Virus record (IMG/VR): IMGVR_UViG_3300004460_000219
Span: 1-35,275 of that record
Reading direction: 5' to 3' (one strand)
Source: a virus
Length of the DNA stretch: 35,275 bases
Below the pieces are notes generated by a model. That model had not been told where the DNA came from. It saw only the letters and a list, made by a program, of their open reading frames with translations, and searched no databases. Each line of letters starts with the position of its first letter. Positions within the stretch are counted from its first letter, which is position 1. The translations under genes were made by a program, and so were the position numbers. This document shows positions 3,547 through 22,700 of the stretch, piece by piece.

Positions 3547-3683
3547 AAATAAAACATCACAAGGTGTTGCCCTCAGGGTTGCACGCAATCACAGACCAGG
3601 AGAACAGGATACACATATACACAGAGGAAGAGTTTAAGCACATCCACTGGTGGACAAGAGCCAAGATATACTTGGAGTTATGA
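3543..3683 (+). CDS. Very small hypothetical protein, 46 aa
   Basis: This ORF (MKIKHHKVLPSGLHAITDQENRIHIYTEEEFKHIHWWTRAKIYLEL) begins at an ATG that overlaps the TGA of the previous gene in a 4-base ATGA coupling, the usual arrangement in this genome. It ends just before the non-coding gap that holds a promoter candidate, so it would be the last gene of the first early unit. It is His- and aromatic-rich and of unknown function. Coupling and composition support it, but its small size lowers confidence. Confidence 0.55.
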   Translation: MKIKHHKVLPSGLHAITDQENRIHIYTEEEFKHIHWWTRAKIYLEL

Positions 3684-3697
3684 TAAATTAATATCAA

Positions 3698-3732
3698 TTT
3701 GTTGTACGATTGATAAACATTTTGTACATTTA
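3698..3732 (+). promoter_or_regulatory. Candidate Bacteroidota-type promoter with direct repeats
   Basis: The 73-base gap after 3683 contains TTTG/TTG at 3698-3704 and TACATTTA at 3725-3732, 20 bases after the TTG. This matches the Bacteroidota -33 (TTTG) and -7 (TAnnTTTG) arrangement except for the last base of the -7 box. TTGTAC occurs at 3702-3707 and again at 3722-3727, so the two copies lie on the same helix face, 20 bp apart, and could also be an operator. A transcript would start about 18 bases before the ATG at 3757. No experimental support; pattern match only. Confidence 0.45.
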
Positions 3733-3756
3733 CAATTCATTAAACACTAATAAATT

Positions 3757-3984
3757 ATGGGAAAAACTAAACAACTTCTCGCAGACATGCGACAGGAAGA
3801 AGTGGACAGGATGGATGCCGACTCAAGCTACGAGGCTTGGTTATCTAATGTTACTTCACATCAAAAATCTTTAACAGAAATAGCACAAACTCTTGAGAAA
3901 TTTCTTGAGAGTTTACCTATGGGCATAGAGCATGCTCAAGCACAAATCAAAAATCAAAAATCAAATGCACTACTCAATTTTTAA
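3757..3984 (+). CDS. Hypothetical acidic helical protein, 75 aa
   Basis: This is the first gene after the promoter candidate. The protein is helical (MGKTKQLLADMRQEEVDRMDADSSYEAWLSNV, then QKSLTEIAQTLEKFLESLPMGIEHAQAQI) with no known domain. Its last 20 bases overlap the downstream DnaA-like gene. The overlap is preceded by a tandem AAATCAA repeat (3944-3964). Loss of one 7-base unit would join it in frame to the DnaA-like protein, so it might be the detached N-terminal part of that protein. Confidence 0.65.
   Translation: MGKTKQLLADMRQEEVDRMDADSSYEAWLSNVTSHQKSLTEIAQTLEKFLESLPMGIEHAQAQIKNQKSNALLNF
3944..3964 (+). repeat. Three tandem AAATCAA heptamers just before an ATG
   Basis: AAATCAA occurs three times end to end from 3944 to 3964 and runs directly into the ATG at 3965. 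The A-rich tract may serve as the translation enhancer of the DnaA-like gene, since no Shine-Dalgarno motif is present. Because 7 is not a multiple of 3, a change in copy number shifts the reading frame of the upstream gene. Confidence 0.8.
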
Positions 3985-4267
3985 ATCATACGTGTCTCAA
4001 GTTTGTGAGCTGTATGATATTAATCAATCAGAACTATTTACAAAGAGCAAGCGAAGAGATATTGTAGACGCTAGGCAGATGCTTTATTATCTATGCTCCG
4101 AAAGACCTATGCGTGTACGTTATATAAAACAGTACATGCAGGAAAGTGGATACTCTGTAGGTCACTCTACAATTATTCATGGGATAAAATTAGTCAAGGA
4201 GAGAGTCTTTAATGACGATGACATGGAGACAATAATAAACACTATACAATCATGCGCAATAATTTAG
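3965..4267 (+). CDS. DnaA domain IV-like DNA-binding protein, 100 aa
   Basis: Residues about 30-80 resemble the C-terminal DNA-binding domain of the bacterial initiator DnaA: RRDIVDARQMLYYLC, the usual helix leading into the domain, then SGYSVGHSTIIHGIKLVKE, which matches the DnaA signature around H-S-T-[IV]-[IV]-H. In DnaA this helix-turn-helix reads DnaA boxes. The AAA+ ATPase domain is absent, so this cannot be a self-sufficient initiator. It could mark the phage origin, compete with host DnaA or act as a regulator. I chose the ATG at 3965, directly after the AAATCAA repeats. An in-frame ATG at 3932 would add 11 unlikely residues. A second protein of this type is encoded at 11402. Confidence 0.72.
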   Translation: MHYSIFKSYVSQVCELYDINQSELFTKSKRRDIVDARQMLYYLCSERPMRVRYIKQYMQESGYSVGHSTIIHGIKLVKERVFNDDDMETIINTIQSCAII

Positions 4268-4656
4268 AAAATGTTTTTCAAGAGGCGAGAGTAGACGACA
4301 TGGCTGTTAGTTTAGATGGGCATGGGTACGACTCAACGCTGTACCTAGGTTGCAAGATAACTAAAGACAAAGAGCTGGGCGATATCGTTATTCAAAACGT
4401 AGCGCTTGGGGGAGACTATTACAAATACATTTCTTATGACGAGGAGATGGTGTTTATTAATAAAGGTTGGAGGCTTGGCGTATATAATCTATGTATAAAT
4501 ACTTACTTAAAAAAACTAAATGATATTGAATACAAGATTAAGTACGAGATGAACAACAAACAAAACCCTAAGAAAATAAAACATTTAAAAAATCATAGGG
4601 AAAGATTACTAAAAAAATATAACAAGATTAATTTAAAACTAAACAATCATGAGTAA
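4252..4656 (+). CDS. Hypothetical protein with basic coiled C-terminus, 134 aa
   Basis: I do not recognise this protein. The N-terminal half (residues 1-80) looks like a small mixed fold (VSLDGHGYDSTLYLGCKITKDKELGDIVIQNVALGGDYYKY). The C-terminal half is strongly basic and helical (NNKQNPKKIKHLKNHRERLLKKYNKINLKLNNHE), suggesting nucleic-acid contact. It overlaps the DnaA-like gene by 16 bases upstream and the annealing-protein gene by 8 bases downstream. This implies translational coupling within the replication/recombination operon. Confidence 0.7.
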   Translation: MRNNLENVFQEARVDDMAVSLDGHGYDSTLYLGCKITKDKELGDIVIQNVALGGDYYKYISYDEEMVFINKGWRLGVYNLCINTYLKKLNDIEYKIKYEMNNKQNPKKIKHLKNHRERLLKKYNKINLKLNNHE

Positions 4657-5278
4657 ATTAAAATCAGTTTTTGAAACATTGAACTCTATCAATGTAAACG
4701 ACAAAGTAGAAAAGAAGAACAACCTAACATACCTATCATGGGCATGGGCGTGGGCAGAGGTAAAGAAGAACTACCCTACCGCAACGTATACAATCTATGA
4801 GAATGTAGACGGGATGTTCTACCACACAGACAACAGGTCTGCATGGGTTAAGACAGGTGTAACCATCGAGGGTATAGAGCACATCGAATACCTACCTGTG
4901 ATGGACTTCAGAAACAATTCTATCCTTCTGGATAAGCTATCGTCTGTTGATGTAAACAAAACCATACAGCGTAGCTTAACAAAGGCTATCGCAAGGCATG
5001 GGCTTGGTCTTTATGTGTATGCTGGAGAAGACTTACCTAACGGTGAGGCAAAGCAAACAACAGGCAGACCAGTAGCTAAGAAGCCAGCGAAAACTATGCC
5101 TTCTTTACAAACGATGGAAACGCATCTAAACCTAGAGATAGGAGATGATAATTGGGATAGAGTTATGAAGTATGTAATCGACAACAAGGACAAAGGCCTT
5201 AAGTTTATTGGAGAACAGCTGACTAAAAAATATAAAATGTCAACGATAGTTAAAAAAGAAATAGCAAAAGCAATATAG
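4649..5278 (+). CDS. Single-strand annealing protein, Sak3/DUF1071-like
   Basis: The protein carries the hallmarks of the DUF1071 (Sak3-type) annealing family: LTYLSWAWAWAEVKKNYP at residues 26-43, EYLPVMDFRN at 80-89 and DVNKTIQRSLTKAIARHGLGLYVYAGEDLP at 101-130. Family members anneal complementary single strands and work with a 5'-3' exonuclease in phage recombination, as RecT and Red-beta do. A Lys/Pro-rich linker (about 135-150) joins a helical C-terminal domain that may contact SSB or other partners. The RecE-like exonuclease gene follows 2 bases downstream, the expected pairing. Length (209 aa) is plausible for the family. Confidence 0.85.
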   Translation: MSKLKSVFETLNSINVNDKVEKKNNLTYLSWAWAWAEVKKNYPTATYTIYENVDGMFYHTDNRSAWVKTGVTIEGIEHIEYLPVMDFRNNSILLDKLSSVDVNKTIQRSLTKAIARHGLGLYVYAGEDLPNGEAKQTTGRPVAKKPAKTMPSLQTMETHLNLEIGDDNWDRVMKYVIDNKDKGLKFIGEQLTKKYKMSTIVKKEIAKAI

Positions 5279-5280
5279 AT

Positions 5281-6012
5281 ATGAAAGACATCATCAAACA
5301 ATTACAAGACGACAAGGAGTACTACACAGGGGTTGGAAGGAATTATCTTTCCAACTCAGACATAGGAGACCTGATTAAAAATCCTAAGAACTTTAGGAAA
5401 CCAAGAGAGGACAACAAAAACTTTCTTGTAGGCAGATACTTCCATCAGTTAATACTTGAGCCAGAGAAGGCAGAGGCTACGCCTCATGTAGACCTAGCCT
5501 CCAGGAACAGCAAGGCTTACAAAGAATTCATTGCTGAAAACAATCTAGAGATAGGCCTGCTTACAAAGGAGAAGTTAATGATGGAAGACCTAGTTGAAAG
5601 CATGCTCAACGTGAAGGACATCAGAGCTTTGATACAGGAAGATGGCGTGCAGTATGAGGTGCCCATGATAAAAGAAATACATGGAGAAATGTGGAAGGGT
5701 AAAGCAGATATTGTAGGCTCAGAATATATTTTTGATATCAAAACAACAGGTGCTATAGATAAGTTTAAGTGGAGTGTTCGTGATTATAATTACGACAGCC
5801 AAGCTTATATATATCAACAGCTTTTTGGAAAGCCCCTTGTGTTTTTAGTTGTGGATAAGACAACTAAGATGATAGGCATGTACTCTGTGAGTGACGAGAG
5901 CTTAGAACGTGGTGAGCAGAAGGTTGCCAAGGCTGTTGCGCAGTACAGAAGGTTTTATGGTGACATGCCAGAGGAAGATATAAACCAATTCTATTTTTAT
6001 GATGAGGTTTAA
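5281..6012 (+). CDS. PD-(D/E)XK exonuclease, RecE/exonuclease VIII-like
   Basis: This 243-aa protein fits the putative exodeoxyribonuclease VIII (PDDEXK) family. Visible elements are YLSNSDIGDLIKNP (22-35), GRYFHQLILEPEK (51-63) with the conserved His55, the active-site Asp143 in GKADIV, the D152-I-K154 motif in FDIKTTG, and YDSQAYIYQQ (171-180), the conserved Gln/Tyr helix. It should resect double-stranded DNA ends to produce single strands for the adjacent Sak3-like annealing protein. The start is 2 bases after that gene's stop. The 3' end overlaps the following small gene by 11 bases. Confidence 0.85.
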   Translation: MKDIIKQLQDDKEYYTGVGRNYLSNSDIGDLIKNPKNFRKPREDNKNFLVGRYFHQLILEPEKAEATPHVDLASRNSKAYKEFIAENNLEIGLLTKEKLMMEDLVESMLNVKDIRALIQEDGVQYEVPMIKEIHGEMWKGKADIVGSEYIFDIKTTGAIDKFKWSVRDYNYDSQAYIYQQLFGKPLVFLVVDKTTKMIGMYSVSDESLERGEQKVAKAVAQYRRFYGDMPEEDINQFYFYDEV

Positions 6013-6171: not shown

Positions 6172-6444
6172 ATGGCAGTAAACACAGATGAAATTGTATT
6201 CGCAGACGGTTTCAAATTCAGAAAGAAACATCCTAATCAAAAAGATTTTGTACTAGGAAGTTTAAGTATCAAGGTTGATGACGCAATCACATTTTTAAAA
6301 GCCAACTCAAAAAACGGTTGGGTAAATGTAGGCATCAAGGAAAGTAAGGCAGGAAATCCTTACATGTTTGTTGACAACTTTGAACCAAAGCAAACAGAGG
6401 CGGTAACCAAAATTCATTTAGATGAGAGTGACGTACCCTTCTAA
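6172..6444 (+). CDS. Putative single-stranded DNA-binding protein with SSB-like acidic tail, 90 aa
   Basis: The 90-aa product has a compact core rich in strand-forming segments (FKFRKKHPNQKDFVLGSLSIKV; KNGWVNVGIKESKAGNPYMFVDNF) and basic and aromatic residues suited to single-stranded DNA. It ends in DESDVPF, which resembles the conserved bacterial SSB tip (D-D-D-I-P-F) used to recruit repair proteins. It does not show the usual SSB OB-fold sequence signature. It follows the annealing protein and exonuclease and precedes the primase-helicase, as expected for a phage SSB. Assignment is by tail motif and context, so it remains an inference. A terminator follows directly. Confidence 0.55.
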   Translation: MAVNTDEIVFADGFKFRKKHPNQKDFVLGSLSIKVDDAITFLKANSKNGWVNVGIKESKAGNPYMFVDNFEPKQTEAVTKIHLDESDVPF

Positions 6445-6451
6445 AAATAAT

Positions 6452-6480
6452 GGGGTGTGTAACAGCGCCCCAAAATTTTT
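6452..6480 (+). terminator. Rho-independent terminator
   Basis: GGGGTG (6452-6457) pairs with CGCCCC (6466-6471) to form a 6-bp GC-rich stem with one G-T wobble and an 8-base loop, followed by AAAA and a TTTTT run (6476-6480). It begins 7 bases after the stop of the SSB-like gene and would end the recombination transcript before the non-coding block. Confidence 0.7.
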
Positions 6481-6499
6481 GTGCTAATATATTTTACTA

Positions 6500-6545
6500 T
6501 ATAGGGTTTATTATTCAATGCTTTTATTTATTTTTATTCCCTATA
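6500..6545. repeat. Spaced inverted repeat TATAGGG/CCCTATA
   Basis: TATAGGG at 6500-6506 and its exact complement CCCTATA at 6539-6545 flank 32 bases of T-rich sequence. They could form a cruciform or mRNA hairpin or bind a dimeric protein. The enclosed AT-rich stretch would melt easily, which suits an unwinding element next to the iterons. Confidence 0.55.
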
Positions 6546-6557
6546 CGAGACCAGAAA

Positions 6558-6629
6558 GATAACATTATCGACACACACACTGATAATCAGTTACTTAAGT
6601 AACATAAACTCGACACAAACTCGACACAA
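6558..6629. other. Candidate replication origin: palindromes, iterons and a DnaA-box-like site
   Basis: Directly before the primase-helicase gene lie several elements. GATAA-CA-TTATC (6558-6569) and CTGAT-A-ATCAG (6580-6590) are inverted repeats. GTTACTTAAGTAAC (6590-6603) is a perfect 14-bp palindrome. ACTCGACACAA is repeated twice in tandem (6608-6618, 6619-6629). The core TCGACACA occurs at 6568, 6610 and 6621, spaced 42 and 11 bases, close to whole helical turns. TTATCGACA (6565-6573) differs from the DnaA box TTATCCACA at one base. With two DnaA domain IV-like proteins in the phage, an origin is a sensible reading. An operator for the primase operon is the main alternative. Confidence 0.5.
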
Positions 6630-6645
6630 TTAAATCAAACACAGC

Positions 6646-9063
6646 ATGACAGCAAAAGAAATCACAATTTTTCAGAACATTAAAGAGACCTCAACCCCTT
6701 TCTTTAGGAGCTTGGAGTTTATTATTGACAGAATAAAAAGCGGAGCATCAAAGGACTTGGTTAAAAGAATTCGCACAGAGAAAGACAAGTCACAGAGAAA
6801 CGAGCTAAAGAAAAATCTACCAGCAATATGTTTCTCAGGTACATTCAATAAGCGTAACGACTCATCAATCATCCAGCACTCAGGTTTTATATGCCTAGAT
6901 TTTGATGGGTACGAGAACAACAAAGAACTCCTAACAGATAAGGAGAAACTAACTAAGAGTAATTTTATATACTCTGTGTTTATATCTCCTTCAGGCAAGG
7001 GATTAAAAGCTCTAGTTAAAATACCTCAGGACATTGACAATCATGTAAACTATTTTAATAGCCTTGAGATACACTTCAATAACCCACACTTTGATACTAC
7101 ATGTAAAAATATTTCAAGGGTTTGTTACGAGTCTTACGACCCGTTGATATACGTAAACAAAAACTCTAGTGTATGGGAAGAGATTAAAGAAAAGGAATAC
7201 ACTGAGGTAAACAGCAGGTTAGACATGCCGACAATACCAATCACAGATGAGAACAAGATTGTAGAGATACTTGTGAAGTGGTGGGTAAAGAAGTACCCAA
7301 TGGTTGAGGGGCAGAGAAACAATAACTGTTTTATTTTAGCCTCAGCATTTAATGACTTCGGTATTAATAAATCTTTAGCTGGATATGTACTGCAGAACTA
7401 TAGAACTTCAGACTTTACAGAGACAGAAATAAATCAGACGATAAGTTCGGCCTATGCTCAGACACAAAACCATGGTACAAAATACTATGAGGATGAGGAG
7501 AGGGTCAACAACATAAGAGTAAAGCTTAGACGTGGGGAGTCTAAAAAGAAAATAAAATCACAGCTAGAGGACAGCCACATAGAGCCAAGGGTAATAGAGG
7601 CTGTACTTAACAGGGTTGAGGAGGAGAATGAACAGAAACAATTCTGGACTAAATCAGACAAGGGAGTAATAAAGATAGTGCATATACTATTCAAGCAGTT
7701 CCTTGAGGACAATGGCTTTTATAAGTACAGCCCAGAAGGTAGTAAGAACTATGTGTTTGTTAAGGTAACCAACAATCTGGTTGACCATACAGATGAGAAG
7801 TATATAAAAGACTTTGTATTGAACAGCGTTATAGAGCTGGACGATGCGTCAATATACAATCACTTTGCAGACCAGGTAAGGTACTTTAGAGAGGATTTCC
7901 TGACACTTCTATCAACGATTGACATCTACTTTGTTGAGGACAATAAGAACACCTCATACCTTTACTATAATAACTGTGCTATCAAGGTAACAAAAGATGA
8001 TGTAGAGGTGATAGATTACATAGACCTCAATGGTTTTGTTTGGAAAGACCACGTCATTGATAGGGTATTTAATAAGTGTGAGGTAGGTGACTGCGACTAC
8101 AAAAAGTTTATAAAAAATATATGTGCTTCTGATGATGGTAGAATTAAATCAATGGAGTCTACTATTGGTTTTCTTCTGCATGGGTACAAGAATTTATCAT
8201 ACTGCCCAGCAATAATTTTAAACGATGAGGTTATAAGTGACAACCCAGAGGGAGGAACAGGTAAGGGATTGTTTATGAATGCCTTACAGAAGATGAAGAA
8301 GGTGGTAACGATAGACGGAAAGTCTTTTACTTTTGAAAGAGCATTTGCCTACCAACTCGTGTCAGCTGACACACAGATACTTGTGTTCGATGATGTAAAA
8401 AAGGGGTTTGATTTTGAGAGATTGTTTTCTGTGGTAACAGAAGGACTTACGCTTGAAAAGAAAAACAAGGACGCAATAAAAATTCCGTTTAGTAAGTCAC
8501 CTAAGATTGCAATCACAACTAACTACGCCATCAAGGGAGCAGGTAATTCTTTTGCTCGTAGAAAGTGGGAGCTTGAACTACACCAGCACTACAATAAAAA
8601 CTATACACCAATCGATGAGTTCGGTAAGCTAATGTTTGGAGACTGGAACGATGAGGACTGGTGCAAGTTTGATAACTACATGGTGGGATGTATGATGGGA
8701 TACCTAGAGACAGGATTAGTCAAGAGTAAGTTTGTTAACCTTAAGATACGACAGCTATCTGCGGAGTCTTCACATGATTTTATAGAGTGGCTAGGGTTAA
8801 TAGCTGGGAGTGAGATGAGCGCCAACATATATGTTGACTCAAGGATACACACCAACACTCTGTACCAGGATTTTATATCAGAGTACCCAGACTACGGACC
8901 AAAGTCTAGACTATCTATATCACAGGTAAGATTTAATAAGTGGCTTACAGCCTATGCTGTCTACAAAACGGGAGCTCAACCTGAAAAGGGTAGAGATGCT
9001 ACAGGTAGATGGATGAGATTAAAAAGAGCAGACGAAGTTAACATTCAAACCTCATTATTATGA
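6646..9063 (+). CDS. Primase-helicase: BT4734/VirE_N-type primase domain plus SF3-like helicase
   Basis: The 805-aa protein is modular. Residues about 1-180 match the BT4734-like/VirE N-terminal domain, which I believe has been linked to archaeo-eukaryotic-type primases: CLDFDGYE (83-90) supplies acidic metal ligands, followed by SPSGKGLKALVKI (114-126). A helical PriCT-like segment (about 215-275; NNCFILASAFNDFG...ETEINQTISSAY) follows. The C-terminal ATPase has Walker A EGGTGKG (535-541), Walker B VFDDVKK (DD at 582-583) and a sensor motif ITTN (623-626) with ARRKW beyond, as in SF3/D5-type phage helicases. It should prime and unwind DNA at the fork. The gene follows the candidate origin and its TGA overlaps the next ATG. 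Confidence 0.82.
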   Translation: MTAKEITIFQNIKETSTPFFRSLEFIIDRIKSGASKDLVKRIRTEKDKSQRNELKKNLPAICFSGTFNKRNDSSIIQHSGFICLDFDGYENNKELLTDKEKLTKSNFIYSVFISPSGKGLKALVKIPQDIDNHVNYFNSLEIHFNNPHFDTTCKNISRVCYESYDPLIYVNKNSSVWEEIKEKEYTEVNSRLDMPTIPITDENKIVEILVKWWVKKYPMVEGQRNNNCFILASAFNDFGINKSLAGYVLQNYRTSDFTETEINQTISSAYAQTQNHGTKYYEDEERVNNIRVKLRRGESKKKIKSQLEDSHIEPRVIEAVLNRVEEENEQKQFWTKSDKGVIKIVHILFKQFLEDNGFYKYSPEGSKNYVFVKVTNNLVDHTDEKYIKDFVLNSVIELDDASIYNHFADQVRYFREDFLTLLSTIDIYFVEDNKNTSYLYYNNCAIKVTKDDVEVIDYIDLNGFVWKDHVIDRVFNKCEVGDCDYKKFIKNICASDDGRIKSMESTIGFLLHGYKNLSYCPAIILNDEVISDNPEGGTGKGLFMNALQKMKKVVTIDGKSFTFERAFAYQLVSADTQILVFDDVKKGFDFERLFSVVTEGLTLEKKNKDAIKIPFSKSPKIAITTNYAIKGAGNSFARRKWELELHQHYNKNYTPIDEFGKLMFGDWNDEDWCKFDNYMVGCMMGYLETGLVKSKFVNLKIRQLSAESSHDFIEWLGLIAGSEMSANIYVDSRIHTNTLYQDFISEYPDYGPKSRLSISQVRFNKWLTAYAVYKTGAQPEKGRDATGRWMRLKRADEVNIQTSLL

Positions 9064-10298
9064 TACAGTTTAGAGACTACCAGCAAAAGATTATTGATGA
9101 TGGCGTTAAGATAATATCTGAAAAAGGATTTCTTTATCTAGCCATGGAGGTTAGGACAGGTAAGACCCTGACTAGCCTGGGTATAGCAGAGAAGATGGGG
9201 TACGAAAATGTTTTGTTCCTTACAAAAAAGAAGGCTATCAGTTCTATAACACACGACAACGACATGATGTGCCCCACATCTTTTATTTTGTTTGTTATAA
9301 ACTATGAGAGTATGCACAAACTACCCAACATAAAGTGGGACTTGATTATTCTGGACGAAGCCCATGGTATGGGTGCGTTTCCCAAGCCCAACAAGAGAGC
9401 TAAAGATGTTAGAACTATTATAAGCAAGACAGGTTGTGATGTCTGTTTGTTGTCAGGAACACCAACACCTGAGTCGTACAGTCAGATGTACCACCAGGTG
9501 TATGGTATTCCAAAGAATCCTTTCAGACAATACCCTAGTTTCTATAAGTTCTCTCATGATTACGTGGATGTTAAAGAGAAAAAGATAAACAGCATGTACA
9601 TAAGGGACTACACCAGAGGTCATGATTCTATAATTCAGAAGATGAAACCATACACTATATCTTATACACAGAAGGAGGCAGGGTTTGAGAATGATATTAT
9701 AGAGGAGGTGCTGGAGGTGGATATGAGTGAGTCAACGTATAACATAACCTCAAAGCTTCAAAAGAATTTAGTTGTTGAGGGTAAGGATGAGGTTATACTT
9801 GCGGACACACCAGTGAAACTTATGATGAAGCTTCATCAGATATATAGTGGGACTGTAAAGTTTGAAAGTGGAAACTCTATGATACTAGACTTAAGCAAGG
9901 CTCAGTTTATATACGATAACTTTTGCTTAATGAAGGTAGGAATATTCTATAAGTTTAAGCAGGAACTAAACGCTTTGAAGGAAGTGTATGGCGACCAGCT
10001 CTGCACAGAGGTAGACGAGTTTGATTCCACAGACAAGACCATAGCACTACAGATAGTAAGCGGAAGGGAGGGAATTAGTTTGCGTAACGCAGAGTATCTG
10101 GTGTACTATAACATAGACTTCAGTGCGACAAGCTACTGGCAAAGCCGAGACAGGATGACCACCAAGGACAGTAAGCTTAGTAAAATATTCTGGGTGTTCG
10201 CTAAGGGAGGTATAGAAAAACAAATATACAAAGCGGTGACAAAGAAAAAGGACTACACCTTGCGTCACTTTAAAAAAGATTTATTAACTTTAAATTAA
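9060..10298 (+). CDS. SF2 DNA helicase, DEAH/SNF2-like
   Basis: The 412-aa protein shows superfamily 2 helicase motifs in order: FRDYQQKII (Q-like motif, 4-12), Walker A EVRTGKT (30-36), DEAH (99-102), SGT (132-134, motif III) and, in the second RecA-like domain, GREGISL and QSRDR (361-365, motif VI). Short phage SNF2-like helicases have this compact layout and act in replication, recombination or fork remodelling. Its start overlaps the stop of the primase-helicase gene (ATGA), so expression of the two is probably coupled. I see no extra nuclease or DNA-binding domain. Confidence 0.85.
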   Translation: MIQFRDYQQKIIDDGVKIISEKGFLYLAMEVRTGKTLTSLGIAEKMGYENVLFLTKKKAISSITHDNDMMCPTSFILFVINYESMHKLPNIKWDLIILDEAHGMGAFPKPNKRAKDVRTIISKTGCDVCLLSGTPTPESYSQMYHQVYGIPKNPFRQYPSFYKFSHDYVDVKEKKINSMYIRDYTRGHDSIIQKMKPYTISYTQKEAGFENDIIEEVLEVDMSESTYNITSKLQKNLVVEGKDEVILADTPVKLMMKLHQIYSGTVKFESGNSMILDLSKAQFIYDNFCLMKVGIFYKFKQELNALKEVYGDQLCTEVDEFDSTDKTIALQIVSGREGISLRNAEYLVYYNIDFSATSYWQSRDRMTTKDSKLSKIFWVFAKGGIEKQIYKAVTKKKDYTLRHFKKDLLTLN

Positions 10299-10519: not shown

Positions 10520-10883
10520 TGATTTTAGATACGACCTTGAGATAGGAAAGGAAGGAGAAAGAATTGTTGATTCATTATTCAAAGATAAATTAGTTGAGGT
10601 TAAAAGAGATAGCTGGGTTGGAAGGTCGGGCAATATAGCTATAGAGTACGAGAGCAGAGGCAAGCCATCTGGTATAGCAACAACTCAGGCAGACTACTGG
10701 ATAATAATATTCTCAAAAGAATATCAGGACAAAGTCATGTATGTATTTGAAACTCAGTTACTTAAGAGTGTGTCTAGAGATTACTTTAAGCAAGGCAAAG
10801 TAAAGGCAATGGGAGACAACAACACATCAATGGCTGTGCTTATTCCTATAAAAGAAATTAGTAACTTTATAAAACATAAATGA
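10506..10883 (+). CDS. Putative PD-(D/E)XK nuclease, 125 aa
   Basis: The arrangement GKEGERIVDSL (14-24), VEVKRD (30-35, the E-x-K pair) and GNIAIEYESRGKPSGIATTQADYWIII (42-68) fits a small PD-(D/E)XK nuclease of a type common in phages. Glu18, Glu31 and Lys33 are the likely active-site residues. It might cleave branched DNA (Holliday junction resolvase-like) or trim ends. It overlaps the membrane-protein gene upstream and has a 4-base ATGA overlap with the VRR-NUC gene downstream. The exact family and substrate are inferred. Confidence 0.65.
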   Translation: MNFNNDFRYDLEIGKEGERIVDSLFKDKLVEVKRDSWVGRSGNIAIEYESRGKPSGIATTQADYWIIIFSKEYQDKVMYVFETQLLKSVSRDYFKQGKVKAMGDNNTSMAVLIPIKEISNFIKHK

Positions 10884-11119
10884 CAGAACAGCAGATACAA
10901 GCGAAGAGAATTAAACAGCTTGAGGCTGAGGGTTATTATGTGATTAAGCTTATTAAAACAAATAAGAATGGGATACCTGACCTTGTTGCTATACCACCTA
11001 ACTGCGGTGTAATATTTAGCGAAGTTAAAACAACTAAGGGAAAAGTGTCTGCGCTACAGGAGTATAGACTTAAAGAATTAAAGAAGCATGGAGTACAGGT
11101 TGAGGTTTATAGAGGGTGA
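10880..11119 (+). CDS. VRR-NUC domain nuclease, 79 aa
   Basis: The whole protein corresponds to a stand-alone VRR-NUC domain: GIPDLVAIPP (31-40) with the active-site Asp34, FSEVKTTKGKVSALQEYRLKEL (47-68) with Glu48-x-Lys50 and the conserved Gln60, and a final strand VQVEVYRG. Phage VRR-NUC proteins are small PD-(D/E)XK endonucleases thought to act on branched DNA such as Holliday junctions. It is coupled to the preceding nuclease by an ATGA overlap and overlaps the next gene by 32 bases. Confidence 0.85.
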   Translation: MTEQQIQAKRIKQLEAEGYYVIKLIKTNKNGIPDLVAIPPNCGVIFSEVKTTKGKVSALQEYRLKELKKHGVQVEVYRG

Positions 11120-11414
11120 ATACGAATACGAGGTAGACGAAAACTTTATTGAAATACTACGAGAGATGCCTGAAGAGTTGGCTATGGACATAGCATCTCA
11201 GATAGAATTTAATTCAGACTTACTTCCTGCTACTGGATTTAGTACAAGTATATTTGCTGGTGTAACAAAAGACCTAGACACACCAATTTTTTTTTGTGTT
11301 GAGTACGCAAAAGAAGAAGGAGGAAATACTATATACATAGACATAGAGCAGGTAGACTCTGATACATATTTAGATTTATATTTAATTAAACAAACACTAC
11401 AATGGCAAACTTAA
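11088..11414 (+). CDS. Hypothetical acidic protein, 108 aa
   Basis: I do not recognise this acidic protein (MEYRLRFIEGEYEYEVDENFIEILREMPEELAMDIASQIEFNSD...). Its start lies inside the end of the VRR-NUC gene (32-base overlap) in another frame, and its end overlaps the second DnaA-like gene by 13 bases. The frame stays open and acidic beyond the overlap, which supports it. A later start at the Met near residue 27 would avoid the long overlap and cannot be ruled out. It might mimic DNA charge, but that is speculation. Confidence 0.62.
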   Translation: MEYRLRFIEGEYEYEVDENFIEILREMPEELAMDIASQIEFNSDLLPATGFSTSIFAGVTKDLDTPIFFCVEYAKEEGGNTIYIDIEQVDSDTYLDLYLIKQTLQWQT

Positions 11415-11929
11415 CAAGAGAAAATAGACTTAAGAAAATAGTAAACACAGTTTTTGATGTAGACATTATGGAGAAAACGAGAAAACGAGAAGTGGTAGAG
11501 GCCAGGATGGTGTACTGCCGAATACTTATGGACGAGGGATATAAAACCCTATCAAGAACAGCCAAGAGCCTGGACAAGCATCACGCCACAGTTATACATT
11601 ATAATAATTCATTTAAGTATGTTATAAAAGCAGACGATAGATTGTATGAATTGTATGAGCGATGTGTTAAAATGTTTACAGAGCCACAGCGAATACAAAA
11701 TAAAGAATTAACACTGGTTGAATGTAAAAATTTAATATTTACTTTGGAAAACAAAATAAAAAACTTAACTTTGAATTTATCTAGTCTAAATTTAGAGCAT
11801 GAAATATTTATAAAAAGACAAAAGGTTTACCATGATATTTATAAAACGATACATGAGAGAGTAAACAAAAAGAACATCAAACAAGTTACACGCAAACTTA
11901 ACACATACCTAAATGGAATACACAGTTAA
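11402..11929 (+). CDS. Second DnaA domain IV-like protein with helical C-terminal extension, 175 aa
   Basis: Residues about 28-78 resemble DnaA domain IV: KREVVEARMVYCRILMDEGYKTLSRTAKSLDKHHATVIHYNNSF, with the H-[AS]-T-[VI]-[VI]-H signature at 61-66. There is no AAA+ ATPase. Residues about 100-175 form a charged, Lys/Leu-rich helix with coiled-coil character (LENKIKNLTLNLSSLNLEHEIFIKRQ), suggesting oligomerisation. It overlaps both neighbours, so it is part of the coupled replication operon. The phage therefore makes two different DnaA-like DNA-binding proteins; this one might bridge sites at the iteron block at 6558-6629. Confidence 0.7.
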   Translation: MANLTRENRLKKIVNTVFDVDIMEKTRKREVVEARMVYCRILMDEGYKTLSRTAKSLDKHHATVIHYNNSFKYVIKADDRLYELYERCVKMFTEPQRIQNKELTLVECKNLIFTLENKIKNLTLNLSSLNLEHEIFIKRQKVYHDIYKTIHERVNKKNIKQVTRKLNTYLNGIHS

Positions 11930-13759: not shown

Positions 13760-16700
13760 TTAAAAGTCGTCATATATTTCTTTCTTCAAATCTCTTTTCA
13801 TCTTTCTAATCTCTGACTTTATTTCTTCCGCATCTTCATTTGTTCCTCCAGGACCATACTTATCCTTATACATTTCAGGAAACATCTGTTTCATTTTAGT
13901 CTTACTCATTGGCGTATATGTTTCTCCGCCTTCATTCTTCGGTCTGTAAGACGGAGAGATACCCGTAACATCATACGTAGCCTCTTCAAGCTTTTCCTCT
14001 TCACCACCAAATAAATTATACAGTCCAATGAAAGGGTCGAACTGTGCTCCTACCGTAATTTCTGTTAGCACCCTAAGTGCGGCCTCTACTTCTCCTACAT
14101 CTTTCTTAGTAAGCTTTTTGTACTTATAGAAGACACTGGCTATGGGGTTAACAACATCATCACTAAACCTAAGACCTTCTTCTTTGTACTCCTCTCCTTG
14201 TATACCAGATATTACTCTACCAGCAACATCAAATCCTTCGATAGCTGAGCCAACAAATGGGAGCTGGTATATAAGATTAAGCCCCATCGCAGCCTCTGCC
14301 ATTTTCTTGAGTGCCGCTTCTTTATCCTCGTCATCTCCCTTAACAAATTTAGCTATGTTAGATACACCAACAAACAGCACGTTAGCTACAGCCATGTTTA
14401 ATGCCAAACCTCTCGTGTCTTTTGAGCGCGGCATTTTTCCTTGAGATATACTTCTTGATATGTTGGTTGTGCTCTGCATAACCTTGTTAATTTGAAGAAA
14501 CAATGTGCTACCGAACATGGTAAAAGCTCTTTGAAAAACAGTACTGTTCATCTGTAAAGGAATCTTATCTGTTCCTCTTCTTGATTGCTGAGTAGGATTG
14601 TAATTGTTAAATGCTTTTAAAGCATCAGCCTTACTCATACCATTTTTTATGTTACGCTTATAGTTAATCATGTAACCCATAACACCAAGCACATCTCCAA
14701 TCACAGTAGGAGCAGCAGCCGCTGTTTTAAATCCTTGCTGTGCTCTTTTACGCTTGCTTCCTGTTAATGATTTCTTATTAAAGGTTTGACTTCCAGACTC
14801 TAGCCCGTAGATATCACCCTCTATACCCTGCTCTATCCTCTTCCTGAATGTAGGAGATATCTCCATAGCCTGTCGTACAGGGCCTTTCATTCCAACTAAA
14901 TCTTTAGCTAAAGATAGTACGTTAGCCGCGCCATCAATCATAAACATTGGATAGTCAACAGCCTTCCTAATTACACGAGGAACCTTAGAGTCTGAAGGAA
15001 AATAACTGTAGTCTTCAAAGGCGTTTACAAAAGAAGTAGCCTGCTTAAGTATTTGTATAGCCTTAAATGCTAAGGCAAATCCTGTGAACTTAGATTGTAA
15101 TTTACTTATTATTTTTACAGTTCCTGACGCATCCTTTCCAGAGTCTGGATTGATAGCAAAGTTTACAGCCTTCCTCATAGCACCCTCAACACCAGTCTCT
15201 TTAAGTAAAGCCTTAACAGATTCAATCTTAAATAAGTTGTTTAGCCTCTGCGTTCCTACAGCATAAGCCTTATACTTCTCCATGCTCTCAATATGATTAT
15301 TAAGAACAGATGTAAAATCACCTTTCTTTAGGTTAATATCAGAAGTCTTATTGCTTCTTTCTTTAAAAGCAGGAGAGGTCTCAGAATTAAACACACCGTT
15401 AAAGTCTCCACCCTTTATCATGTCTGCTGAAGTATCAGCTGATATGGTGGATGTTGGGAAGTAGTTATTTACATACCCTAGGTTTACATCATTGACGTAG
15501 GAGTAAACATTGTTAACGCTCTCATAGTATTCATTACTTAGAAAGTCAACAGATTTCTCAGCAAACTCCACCGCCTCTGGACCTATAATATTTTTAATAC
15601 TCTCTATAGTTTCAGGGGTTATGCCTTGAGCTTCAAGCTTCTGTCTTTGAACATCGTTCAAACTAAGCGCGTATATACGCATCATCTGGTCTGAATTAAA
15701 AATATCAGTGTACTCTGTTCCTGTATCCCCTCGCCTTAACACAAGCTCATGAGTACCAGTGTTTAGTTTTCGGTATATTTGTTTCATCCCTTTGGTAATA
15801 CCAGGGATTGTATTTGCAATGTCATCAAGCTTCTGTCTTGTTTGGTAAACTCCACCAATACTTATGTCATCCATTCTATTGAGAGCGTCATAAACATTCT
15901 TAGTAAAGAAGTCCCTTCCTTTGGTTACCCTATCAAGAGTATTGGATAGAGTACCAAGATGCTGAAGCATCAACTTAAAGTTTTTAATATAGCTACTAGC
16001 GCTAGAAAACCTCATGCTTTCAGCTAATGTAGAGAATCCTTTTCCTAGTTCAAAGTTTCTGAAGTGAGAAAGTATTTTATCTCTCCTAGCTAAACGCTGA
16101 TTCTCATTAAGAACATTACCATCCTCATCAAATAGCAAAGGATTTGTATCCTTAATCTGAGCATCAGCCTCCTCTTTCATTTTCTTGTTAGCCTCAGCTC
16201 TTGCTAGTCTTCTGGACTTAAACACAGCGATAGACTCAGCTTTAGTATCTTTTATTTGCTGCATTAAGGCTTGAGTTTCTTCAAGACTCAAATTAGAAAC
16301 GTCTCCAAAGGTATCAAACGCTAACGCCAAGTTTAATAGAGCCTGCTCTTTCTGGTCAAGTGTTAGTTTTTTTACTAAGTCTTTACCAGCTTCAGTCTTC
16401 TGGTCTGCTTTGGTTAGAGCCTTTAGGTCTAACTGTCTCTGTATAAGGTTACTTATCTCTACAGAATTTTCTTGTATCTTCTGTTGTATATCAAGCAGCG
16501 TATCAGCATCAGCCATAAGCACCTGCTTAACAGCGTTGAAATAACTCTGACCCTCTTTACTTAGTCCTTTAGCTCTACGCTTACGTGACTTGGTAAACGC
16601 TGTCATGGCTTTTGATTTAACAAGCTTGAGGATATCCTTAACTAAAGCCTTCTGCATATTAGCCTTCTGCTTATCTACAATATTCATAACATACTCAGTG

Positions 16701-19700
16701 TCTGCCTGGAATGTATCAACTGTAGATTTACCAACCCTAGATATAAGTTTATTTATTTGAGCCTGAGTATATGTTTTAGACTTTGGTAATTGGTTTCTTA
16801 TAAAGTTTTTAAGCTGAGTCTGTGAAGCCCTAAGATTCTTCTCGCTTATCTTACGCTGCTTTAGGCTATTCCTAATAGCTGATATTTCTTTCTGCACCGA
16901 AACATTAGCGCGGCTGTTTAAAGTCTTGTCAAAGTCCACCATAAGCTCCATCTGAACCTGCTCTTGCTGAGCCTGGTATATAGGATTAGCTTTCATCAGG
17001 TCCATGGCTTTCTGTCTTACCTCTGCCATTGTCTTACCTTTGGATGCAAAGTTAGATACCGCTTGTCTAACCTCACTATATAATTTCATGCCCTCACTGA
17101 CGCCACCTTCAACCCTGCCAAACGCTTCAGGTAATTGTGTGAACACATCTACCTTAACTTCCATAGCAGCAGCTATATCCGCGGCTGGAAACTTTCTTTC
17201 TTTAAGCACCGCTTTAATAGATGCGTCTGAGTATCCGTTTCTTCTCCCAGTTTCTATTATAGAAGCCATACTCTGGTCAGACTTAAGCATAGCCTCCTTA
17301 AGGTCTGTCGAGAAAGTTTTTAACTGAGCATCGGTTAGCTTAATAGGTTTACCGCTAAAGATATCTGCCATTGCAGTACCTAGGAACTCATCCATTGTTA
17401 GGTCCTGAATCTCCTTTGTTGTTAGGTCCTTAGACAGTTTAAATTCCTGTCTTACATAATCCCACACCGCAGTAATCCAATCCTTAACCTGCTGCTTTAA
17501 ACTTGCATCCACTACGCTCTCACCTCTGTTACCGATGAGTGTTGCCATTGCTTCTTCAGTAGCCTTGTTTACATCTCCATCAAAACGCTTGAGTAATTTC
17601 TTATACAGCTCAGTCTGTTGTACAATCTCTGCACCACGCTTATATATTTTCTTACCCTTAGGTGTTAATGATAGATGCTTTACCCACACATGACCCATCT
17701 CATGAATAGCTGTGTTGTACAGCTCAGACTTTGAGTCGTGAACTTCTTTATTAATAAAGATGTTACCATCCTTAGTCATACCATAGACAACTGAATCTCC
17801 TCTTAGGTATGCTGTTACGTCAGGGCTCTCTAACAACTGGTTCATAGTGGCCTGGTCGGTAGATATATTAACAAAAGGAAAACTTCGGTTCATAAAATCT
17901 AAAAGCCTACCCTCTTCAGTCACACCAACAATAGTTCCTTGGAACTCTCTGTTAGTCATACCCATTTGAACAGGGATTACCTCTGATAATCTTTTCTTAT
18001 CTGACCTTTTTCTATTTTTCCCTGCATTTTCATTAGCCTTACCAAGCACAGCATTATTATATGCAGACGGAAACAATTCAAGAACAGACTGAGGCTGTTC
18101 TATAACACCTATTATTTTTCCTCTGGGACCAACAGGATAGTTAGGGTGATTAGTTTTTTCAATACCAGGATTCAGAACATCAATACCTGTGATTGTAAAG
18201 ACTGAGCGCACAGGAGTGTTTTTAAGCTGAGGCTCTGTAAGAACATCGGTGATAGAACCAAGGTGTAGCTTAGCTTTGCTTTCTGCTGAAGGGTTTTCGC
18301 CAAGCAGTGCTTTAGCAACAGGGTTCGATGGGGTACCAGGCTTTACTGCTTTACCAGTAGGGCTGTTGGGTTTACCATATCCTAGATTACCTGTGATTAT
18401 ATTGACCGATGTTATAGCTTTTAGATTTTTTAAAGCTTTGGGCGTTAGTAAACCATCTATAGTTTTCGCCTTAACTTTTTTATCCATTTTCTGTACATCC
18501 TCAATAGATTTTATTTGCTCAGCGTACTGCTTAAGTGTACTAGGTTTTACCGCATTACCAGATAAACCCACTCCATCTTTTATAGCTTGCTGTAGCTTAG
18601 TTTTTTTTGTTTCTAATCTCTCTCTAAAAACATTCAAAGCCTCTACTCTCTGAGCCTTAGGAAACGAGGATATGTTGTCAGCCATTACACGAACAACAGC
18701 TTCATTGCTAAGTATAGAGTCTGTCTCCATCTTAACAATTGACATAGGAACTAATCCGTTATACTCAGGATTAGCTGCCCACCAATTCTTAAAAAGTTCT
18801 TTGTTGTTGTTGTATATCTTGGTCGCTGTAGAAATTTGACCCTTGACAGTATTGGTGTCGATGCTTGCCCACGCAAGATTCTCATGACCCTTCACACCGT
18901 TAAATCCTAGGCCACCCTTTAAATTTTTTATAACCTTTCCTGTGGATGGGTTGACTACGTTACCAGTTCTAAGCTGGTCTGATATACTGAACATGGTAGG
19001 TATACCATCAATGACATCTATTGAAACAATAGGCATTGGTCTTCCTCCGTCCTTCTTTAATCTTTCGTTTAGTTCTTGTACATCAATCTTAGGAGCATTG
19101 GGGTTTGTCTCAGTTATCTCGACAACCGCACCATCCGTATCTTCGGACATTGCCTCAACAATTTCATTCACATCTGTGAATCCTTCTTTACTCTGCTCCT
19201 CCTTTAACTTGAAGTCAACATTGGCATCGTTCTCAAACTCTGATTCTAAGTCTGCCTCTAGGTCTGCAACCTCTTGAGCTGCAGCTGTCTCGCTTGCTTT
19301 GAGCTCCTCAATCCCTGAATAGTATTCTTCGGTAGTAACACCCTCAAACTTAGAGTCGTTCTCTATCGCTTTGAGGAGCGTGCTATAAAGGTCTCCCCCA
19401 GTTTGTCTGTCTTGGGACCGTTTGCTCGCAGAGCTTCTAAGAATTTCTTTCCTTTTTCCCTGGTCGACATAGATGGAGTTGACTGGTCGGTAGCTTTGTT
19501 TATCATAAGTAATATTATTAGCTTCTAATTCTTCTACAAAGATACCAATTTTATCTTGTAGTTCTGGGTTGTCAAACTTAAATATGTTTATAAAGCTTAC
19601 CTCCCCTGTGTCTTCGTTGATACTGAAGTCTGTTATGCCTGCTTTTTTTAATGCATTTATAACACCCTGACTATCTGATACAGTAAGAACATACTCGTTA

Positions 19701-22700
19701 CCGTTGTGATTCTTAGAGCCTTCCTCTACATACTCTGCGGCTATACTACTCTCTTGTGTTTCAGGCGCTAAGGCCGCTGCTAATGCAGCATACTCCTGTG
19801 CTTGTTCTATTGTTGCATTCTTTAATACAACTCTATTAGATACCTCTACTATCTCTGTACCTGCGTCATTCTTGTATCCACCAATACCCTCTTCAACCTC
19901 AACCTCTAATCCTAGTTGCTGACCTATTCCAGTTAGGTTGTTCCTGTACTGCTGATACCCTTCACTATCTCTTAAGGTCTGTGCCTGTTCAGCACTCTCA
20001 ATTGTAGTGTCAAAGAATGGAGCAACAGCCACGATAGTCTCTGGCTTAGTTGTAGGTGCTACTTCCTGTATTGGACTGGCTACTTGTTCCGTTTCGGTGG
20101 TCTCAAGTTCTGTGTTTTCTTGGAAATCGAGACCACCGATGGATACTTCTGTTCCCACTCCTGTGCCAATTGTGGCTTGTTGGCGTGCATCCACGCTCTC
20201 TGTTTCTCTGATTTGAACGCCATCTAATTTTTCATTTAATATTTTAGTAACTTCTTTATCATTAGCAACCTTACCATTAAACTCGGTAAGCTGACGAGCA
20301 TTCATTCTACCAAGCTTCTTTAAAAACTCACTTCTACTATAGGTTTTTCCGTCTATCACATACTGAGATAGCGCGGCCCTTGTGTCAGTGGTCTCAACAC
20401 CTGGAGAAAATACAGCTTCTATTTTTGCTTTAATGTTTTCGGGAGCTAATTTTTTATTCTCTATTAAAAAAGCAATCTCTGCATTGATATCTTTAATCTT
20501 CTGACCGAATACTTCTCTACGGTTAGTGTCTGCAGAGTACTCCTCTTTAGCGGACAGCAACTGCATAAGCCTTGTCTTAACAAGTGTATTTTTTTCGCTG
20601 TTCTTATCTATGCCAAAGTCAAGCATATTGTCTGCATCCTTAGAAAGCCCTAGGTTTTTTTGTATTCTCTGTGCCTGGTCGGCATTAATTTGTCCAAGCT
20701 CAAGCATGTTGTTTGTCCACGCAGATACCCTTGTATCGCTTTCCTGTGACAATTCCTGAACTATAAAATCTATCTCGGTAAGCTTAGAGGCAAGCTCTAT
20801 CTTACTCATTTTTTTTATGTCCATCACCTTGTTGACTATCATGCTTGATGTGTTGTTTCCAAAACCACCAATACCTTCTGCAGCTATTTCTTTAAAATCT
20901 AATTCATCACCAACACTAATTTGAGCAAGTCCTTCTCCAGTCATTTCTGCAAGAGGGTCAACTACAAGACGCTCTGCTACCTGTGATACAACCTTCTTTG
21001 TTCTTGAAGCTGTTTTACCAACTTTAAACACACGACCAGCAGCACCAGCGGTTATAAAGTCTACAAGAGCAATTGGAACACCTCGTGCTATACCCCTTTC
21101 TTTTGCTGTTGCCCAAATCTCTGGGTCGTTTATAGCCTTCACAACATCCTGTGGGTTTAGAACATCTAATCCTTTGTCCTCCATAGCTGCAAAGAACTCA
21201 TTGGTATATTCCATAGCAAAAGATGTCATTGCCATACCTGTCTTCATCCCTTGTCTCATACCAAAAATAGCTCCAGGAACAGCTCCAACACCAACACCAC
21301 CTGCAGCTCCTACTCCTGCTCCAATACCACCACCTGCAACCGTACCAGCCGCCACAAGTTCTGCTCCGTAAGGAAGCATCATACCTATAGAGTTTATAGC
21401 CATAACAAAAGCTGTTTCAAATGGATTAGCGTTAAAGGCATCAAGACTTTCTCTAAATCCTGTAGCCCTATTCCACCTTGATAACTGTCTAGACTGTTTT
21501 CTGCCTTGATTTTTTCCTTTTAATGCAGATATCATTTCAGCCGCCTTCTTAACATCCTCTTCGTTGTTAATATCTAAATTCTGAAAATCAAAAGGCATCC
21601 CCGTACTTAGCTGAAGTATAACTTCAGATGCGTTTCCATCGTTTAGTCCAGCGCGTAGTTCTTTGTAAACCGCAGCCGCACCATCCTCCATGTCCTTGGT
21701 TATTGATTTGTCATACTTAGCACTGTAAAAAGTCTTAGCTGTTTCGTATAAATCAGCAGCGTGCTGCCTCTCTACATTTATAGATTTTGTCTGTATTCTA
21801 AGGTCGTCTATTAGCTTTGCTTGTATTTCATCTGCAGGCACAACATTGTTTAGGTCTTTTACAGGAACACCAAACTCTTTTAAAGATAAAACCTCTAGCT
21901 CATCCTGAGCAAACAGCAGTTGTCTGTTTTCTTTAGCTGCTTTCTGGGATAATGCTTCGTATTTTTCGTGTGTCTTAAGGTCAAACTCTTCTCTTAGCTT
22001 TATCTTTTCTTCGGTATTAACTTCAAGGTATAGTTTGTTTTCTATTTCTCGTTGTTCTTTTGCAACCTGAGCAGCATCGTCTCTGAGTACTCCGTTTACA
22101 TAATAACCACCGTACAATTCTTTTTCTTCTGGTGTCAGCTCGCTAATTAAATCTCTACCTAAATCATTTACCTGTTCATCTAAAAATATTCTAGTATCTC
22201 TAGCCTTAAGGTACTGCTGGTACTTATCATCCTCTGCTGCAAAGTTTAAGCCAGCTTCAGAATATAATTGTTTACCTATTACGTTTGTTGCGTGAGTATC
22301 TTTCCAAGAACCTTCAGCAAACTTAGCTGCTTGTTCTGCGGTTTCAAACTCAAAGACCTCACCTCTTTCTTCAGCTAATTTTTTAGCTTCTTCAAAATCA
22401 AGTTCAAGCCAGTCTTCAGGTCTACTTCCATAAAAGCTAGGGTCCTTGGGGAATAGTGTAGGGATAGCATAAAATCTACCGTTGGCCTCGTAGTCTGTCA
22501 TAAGAACTGTAGACTCAGTTCCGTCTTCATTTATTCTTGGAGCTATACGCAGGTTTTGTGCCTTGTCTGATTGAAAAGCAAGGTCCTCAAACTCATTTTC
22601 TTGATACTCTTGCTTAGCGTTATTGGTTATAAAATCTTTTAGTTTCTTAGACTCTAGTACTTCAGACGAAGACATAAATGGCTGGAGGTCTATAGTCTCT

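Follow-up and report, generated by a model that had tools for sequence, protein, structure and literature searches.

The noncoding gap at positions 6445–6645 is probably one of two replication origins of this phage, with iterons that would be bound by the phage's own primase-helicase through a predicted winged helix at its C-terminus. Computed directly are the conserved anatomy of the gap, the concerted change of the iterons among related genomes, the covariation between residues of the primase-helicase and bases of the iterons, and the presence of another complete array elsewhere in the genomes of relatives; that the protein binds and that the DNA bends, unwinds and serves as an origin is what we infer.

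The window, i.e. the whole stretch of DNA analyzed here, is a full virus record of 35,275 bp and represents a fragment of a larger genome; close relatives reach 55–65 kb, and the complete circular relative MW202828.1 (MW202828 below) has 60,850 bp. The left part of the window carries rightward genes for a Sak annealing protein (4649–5278), an exonuclease (5281–6012), a putative SSB-like protein (6172–6444), the primase-helicase (6646–9063), a helicase (9060–10298) and a VRR-NUC nuclease (10880–11119). The SSB-like assignment comes from the small size, the position and the acidic ...DVPF tail of the product; a family search with this protein matched no family. The right half of the window holds leftward virion genes, and MW202828 encodes a terminase, a portal and structural proteins. 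On the minus strand, positions 13760–23434 are occupied by a single ORF of 3,224 aa, the MW202828 counterpart of which lies in the same place, is longer still and is annotated as a rhoptry-like protein. A DNA search with the gap against named phages returned nothing relevant, and a search of bacterial genomes for relatives yielded only three MAG contigs, one of 3.5 kb. Since the relatives in bacterial assemblies are MAG contigs only, with Bacteroidota bin names for two of the three, this host group is assigned as probable, and the virus is probably a podovirus of roughly 60 kb. The sequence TTTGTTGTACGATTGATAAACATTTTGTACATTTAC (3698–3733), ahead of an early gene at 3757, resembles the Bacteroidota promoter (TTTG at -33, TAnnTTTG at -7).

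The features of the gap, and the proteins that bear on its interpretation, are the following:

3932–4267, plus strand: D1, a stand-alone DnaA domain IV-like protein of 111 aa (Bac_DnaA_C, E = 1.7e-10)
6451–6472, plus strand: terminator hairpin after the SSB-like gene, a stem of 8 pairs with a T run after it, in the same place in many relatives
6474–6543, no strand: AT-rich stretch (81% A+T), a candidate unwinding element, located between divergent iteron sets in relatives
6481–6487, minus strand: degenerate iteron TTAGCAC (GTGCTAA on the reverse strand), apparent remnant of an inverted upstream set
6557–6574, plus strand: left iteron pair, 9 bp apart, cores ATAACA (6559–6564) and TCGACA (6568–6573); motif score 19.3, the best in the window, for the EM motif of the relatives
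6585–6597, plus strand: IHF-like site AATCAGttacTTA (WATCARnnnnTTR), flanked by iterons on both sides and conserved in relatives
6596–6628, plus strand: right iteron array, 11 bp apart, cores GTAACA (6599–6604), TCGACA (6610–6615) and TCGACA (6621–6626); motif scores 29.1 and 19.1
6646–9063, plus strand: primase-helicase of 805 aa, with a BT4734-like primase domain, PriCT-1, a DUF5906 helicase and a C-terminal winged helix
8842–9021, plus strand: predicted winged helix, codons 733–792, the proposed iteron reader from covariation and an AlphaFold model; the Arg788 codon is at 9007–9009
11402–11929, plus strand: D2, a second DnaA domain IV-like protein, of 175 aa (Bac_DnaA_C, E = 2.9e-5, which falls short of the curated cut-off)

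The first-pass annotation had reported a terminator, an inverted repeat, a palindrome, an 11-bp repeat and cores spaced by 42 and 11 bases, in a gap directly upstream of the primase-helicase gene, and all of these are present where it placed them; it overlooked the degenerate iterons ATAACA, GTAACA and reverse-strand GTGCTAA that complete the conserved array. The gap was also described as the only large noncoding one in the left half of the window; there is a second, at 3547–3756, although it contains a 46-codon ORF. The iteron sequence TCGACACA occurs at 6568, 6610 and 6621, all within 61 bp, with no other copies on either strand of the 35,275 bp. The AT-rich stretch ranks 176 among the 35,205 70-mers of the window, and the TATAGGG/CCCTATA arms are contained in an imperfect inverted repeat (6500–6519/6526–6545). 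The upstream inverted iteron set is reduced in the window to its one degenerate copy, the position of which matches that of GTGTTGA, GTGTCAA and GTGTTAA in L004–L007.

Relatives were collected via the primase-helicase, which yielded 252 distinct ones. When the leaders are read side by side, the layout is found to be kept in the array-bearing loci of more than 140 of them, in the common order of a terminator, reverse-strand iterons, AT-rich DNA, two direct iterons at a spacing of 9 bp, an IHF-like element, a direct array with an 11-bp step and the ATG; the relatives share descent, so that such counts reflect conservation rather than independent origins. The consensus of the iteron motif derived by EM from the relatives is AATCGACATTATCGACAT and AAATCGACACAAAATCGACACA. 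In most genomes, the left pair lies 38, 48–50 or 59–62 bp from the right array, i.e. the distance changes in steps of 11 bp, with 134 of 144 distances falling into two adjacent residue classes modulo 11; the 50 bp of the window lie among the fixed steps of 38, 49–50 and 60–61. For the upstream inverted set, at least one reverse copy of the genome's own 5-mer is found in 107 of 166 genomes, and a forward copy in 28 of 166. A central WATCARnnnnTTR element, which is the published IHF consensus (A/T)ATCAAnnnnTT(A/G) (PMC5742627) relaxed at one base, is present in 103 of 167 relatives, compared with 0.9 in shuffled sequences, nearly always in either of two positions separated by 11 bp. Within each genome, the iterons vary together; L067–L069, for example, have TCGTCA left and right and on either strand, and L031 has TCAACA. 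The first pass had named free variation of the iterons among relatives as evidence against an origin, and such variation is not observed. The perfect 14-mer palindrome (6590–6603) and the exact TATAGGG/CCCTATA pair, both named in the first pass, exist in the window but are broken in several close relatives and were rejected as conserved elements. In the L070 genome, which has no array before the primase, the array search found none.

A second array, 8–13 kb upstream of the primase array, is present in about 20 of the large relatives, including the sister of the window. In a pattern search of 48 records, second sites were detected in many; of the 20 that were read, 19 have the left pair and most have the complete layout, including the IHF-like site and spacing in the steps described above. 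These counts are lower bounds given that records may be fragments, and distances across record ends assume circular or circularly permuted genomes. In MW202828, the second full array is at 42.62–42.81 kb, 11 kb from the first, among leftward genes; it adjoins groEL, is overlapped in part by a small leftward ORF of the annotation and has no co-oriented gene ahead of it. In the sister, the primase-helicase of which is 97% identical to that of the window, the twin (L441:5620–5800) is 10 kb upstream of the primase array, adjoins a leftward ORF of 533 aa and likewise precedes no co-oriented gene; the equivalent place would fall outside the window. For L065, only the distant copy was found. The region of MW202828 next to its second array (40.7–42.6 kb) encodes GroEL and a GroES-like chaperonin, and a hypothetical gene annotated in the same genome at 53503–53628 (UOF82549.1) overlaps the iterons and is unlikely to be a real gene.

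The most likely reader of the iterons is the primase-helicase itself, via its predicted C-terminal winged helix, as suggested by covariation. All 804 columns of the primase-helicase alignment were scored against the iteron type in 113 TCGACA and 37 TCAACA genomes, with mixed genomes left out. The best columns, by balanced accuracy, are 736 (0.96), 788 (0.92), 735 (0.90), 186 and 761 (0.89 each) and 764 (0.83). Residue 788 is Arg in all 113 TCGACA genomes; among the 37 TCAACA genomes, it is Lys in 26, Arg in 6, Ile in 4 and Asn in 1. In 12 phylogenetically independent sister pairs, column 736 agrees 8-0 and column 788 agrees 7-0. When the iteron label was simulated 300 times on a tree of residues 1–690, no simulation matched the observed values, the maxima being 0.929 for the best column (0.96 observed) and 0.904 for the second best (0.92 observed). 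The winged helix evolves fast, and in 24 of the 300 simulations, 5 or 6 of the top 6 columns fell within it, so that the share of top columns in this region is not significant by itself. In the control genes, the best columns reach 0.79 for D1, 0.86 for D2, 0.80 for SSB, 0.86 for SAK, 0.84 for EXO and 0.87 for HEL.

Two genomes with Lys788 that had been scored as array-less were found on reading to carry A-type iterons, L065 at its distant twin site, and L233. There are also exceptions. Arg788 is kept in the 6 TCAACA genomes noted above and in many mixed ones, and the twin array of the window's sister is of the TCAACA type and coexists with Arg788; Arg788 thus appears to tolerate both bases. 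In the TCGTCA group, Lys788 is paired with G (then T).

Pfam identifies DUF5906, PriCT-1 and BT4734-like_N in the primase-helicase, and Foldseek matches it to the SaPI5 primase-helicase (7OLA), poxvirus D5 and AsfvPrimPol; when the PDB was searched by sequence with the primase alignment, only chance hits were returned. Residues 255–342 (window 7408–7671), between the primase and helicase domains, are weakly RecX-like (E = 0.0013). The AlphaFold model of the C-terminal region consists of a strand (733–735), a helix (736–746), a recognition helix (760–775) and a wing (780–792), and the covarying residues 735, 736, 761, 764 and 788 map to the start of the first helix, the N-terminus of the recognition helix and the wing.

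Under the origin interpretation, the winged helices of the primase-helicase would bind the TCGACA iterons, and a host DNA-bending protein would probably bend the IHF-like site, a bend that would bring the left pair together with the right array in one complex adjoining the AT-rich stretch. The AT-rich DNA would then melt, the D5-type helicase ring would load itself, and the fused primase domain would initiate synthesis. The recognition step rests on the covariation, and we infer every step after it. The array being located in the leader of the primase-helicase gene, binding would probably regulate this gene as well. More tentatively, and with the odds somewhat against it, a large phage family might replicate from two duplicated SaPI-like origins 8–13 kb apart, which a self-loading primase-helicase would read through a natural base code in its winged helix; the second array might then provide another start site or stall forks and so induce a switch to concatemers. 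GC skew, proposed in the first pass as a check, was computed but follows gene direction in the window, MW202828 and the sister genome G001, with no mark at the array, and hence cannot place the origin; the skew at four-fold sites to the left and to the right of the array showed no consistent difference across 164 genomes (97/164).

The iterons could instead be an operator only, that is, autoregulatory sites for the replication operon, bound by the primase-helicase or another regulator, with replication starting elsewhere. The location of the array between the terminator and the ATG of the primase-helicase, some 20–90 nt from the start, is what an operator would have, but the internal geometry of the array is fixed whereas its distance to the ATG varies between relatives, and the gap shows no enrichment of the Bacteroidota promoter consensus TAnnTTTG (19 of 164 compared with 25 in shuffles). 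An origin is favored over a plain operator primarily because the complete second array, with its own AT-rich and IHF-like sites, precedes no co-oriented gene in MW202828 and the sister, the two genomes checked; an operator function alone therefore appears unlikely.

Still less probable is an origin of the DnaA type, in which the iterons would be modified DnaA boxes to which D1 and D2 bind and thereby bring in the primase-helicase. The first pass was correct that the phage encodes two DnaA-like proteins, and both contain the DnaA HTH; furthermore, of the 152 arrays called, 141 have D1 beside them, and D1 is lacking in a clade that has no arrays. However, D1 and D2 were rejected as iteron readers because neither tracks the iteron type (0.79 and 0.86, compared with 0.96 for the primase-helicase); in L054 and L062, the recognition helix of D1 has LPS where others have HSS, and the iterons remain mainly TCGACA. 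The central element tracks neither protein, its covariation with D1, D2, primase, SSB and SAK being no greater than the null. The near-perfect DnaA box of the first pass, TTATCGACA at 6565, is indeed one base off TTATCCACA, but 12 sites on both strands of the window are within one mismatch of the latter, with one perfect match (5850, minus strand), so that the box carries little weight alone; it is no more than the second of the two iterons on the left. A search for a cluster of TTATnCACA boxes found no perfect box in the gap. No full-length AAA+ DnaA is encoded in the 35-kb window, where D1 matches only DnaA domain IV and D2 only the DnaA HTH. The initiation module suggested in the first pass fits well with the conserved geometry, the concerted iterons and the second array as an iteron origin run by phage proteins, but not with DnaA-like readers. 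Given that D1 accompanies most of the arrays and is missing from the array-less clade, it may be an accessory factor. As side observations, no D1 was seen in the stretches covered of the array-less relatives L070–L074, L078–L080 and L290–L317, and Arg399 of DnaA corresponds, by eye, to Lys in D1. That the arrays are partition, packaging or recombination sites that use the same protein by chance would account for two copies per genome and the strict geometry but is highly improbable, with the primase-helicase as the inferred reader, no partition gene named in the annotation of MW202828, and the terminase (29.3–31.5 kb) far from both arrays.

If the primase-helicase is the initiator, a rep-ori layout thought to be peculiar to phage-inducible islands occurs in uncultured phages of a widespread family, which have their own virion genes and, in many genomes, two copies of the layout. 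The natural changes at one arginine and its neighbors match a one-base change in the iteron, so that origin recognition by D5-type proteins becomes directly testable with natural variants. The scheme predicts the replication start sites in these phages and suggests origin recognition without the host DnaA.

Bacterial oriC shares with the array 9-mer direct repeats, an IHF site and an AT-rich element, and phage proteins with DnaA domain IV exist; in contrast to oriC, the iterons are not DnaA boxes, the window has no AAA+ DnaA, and no covariation links the DnaA-like proteins to the iterons. The alpha protein of phage P4 combines primase, helicase and a winged-helix origin-binding domain in one chain, and P4 ori1 and crr, two cis sites, consist of iterons around AT-rich DNA; the P4 iteron differs from that of the window. 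Here, the winged-helix fold is predicted, its structural comparison with the P4 origin-binding domain (1KA8) is not significant (E = 0.97), and the phage, unlike P4, is not a satellite. The alpha protein has been described as a primase-helicase fusion (PMC7145576). Phage SPP1 has two origins, oriL and oriR, 12 kb apart and bound by one phage initiator, where a fork block at the second origin is believed to set off sigma replication, and encodes a recombinase, an exonuclease, an SSB and a resolvase (PMC3485210). This resembles the two arrays of the relatives and the Sak annealing protein, exonuclease, SSB-like protein and VRR-NUC nuclease found here, but G38P of SPP1 is a separate origin-binding protein that acts with a helicase loader and a replicative helicase, whereas here the proposed initiator is the helicase.

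In SaPIs and other PICIs (SaPI5, SaPIbov1), Rep is a helicase of the D5 type or one like it, in some cases joined to an AEP primase, and its C-terminal domain recognizes short iterons beside its own gene, and two iteron sets flank an AT-rich region (PMC6092414, PMC7581432). The phage protein is likewise a D5/SF3-like helicase with a fused primase that Foldseek matches to SaPI5, the covariation of winged-helix residues with the iteron type points to a possible counterpart of that C-terminal recognition, and iteron sets flank the AT-rich DNA in most relatives, the upstream set of the window being a single degenerate copy. The differences are that the array is located 5' of the gene rather than 3' as in PICIs, that it includes an IHF-like site and is duplicated, with the twin 8–13 kb upstream, and that the carrier is a phage with its own virion genes, not a helper-dependent satellite. 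The SaPI/P4-like rep-ori and the SPP1-like duplication are known; the 5' placement together with the duplication, in a phage carrying virion genes of its own, is new.
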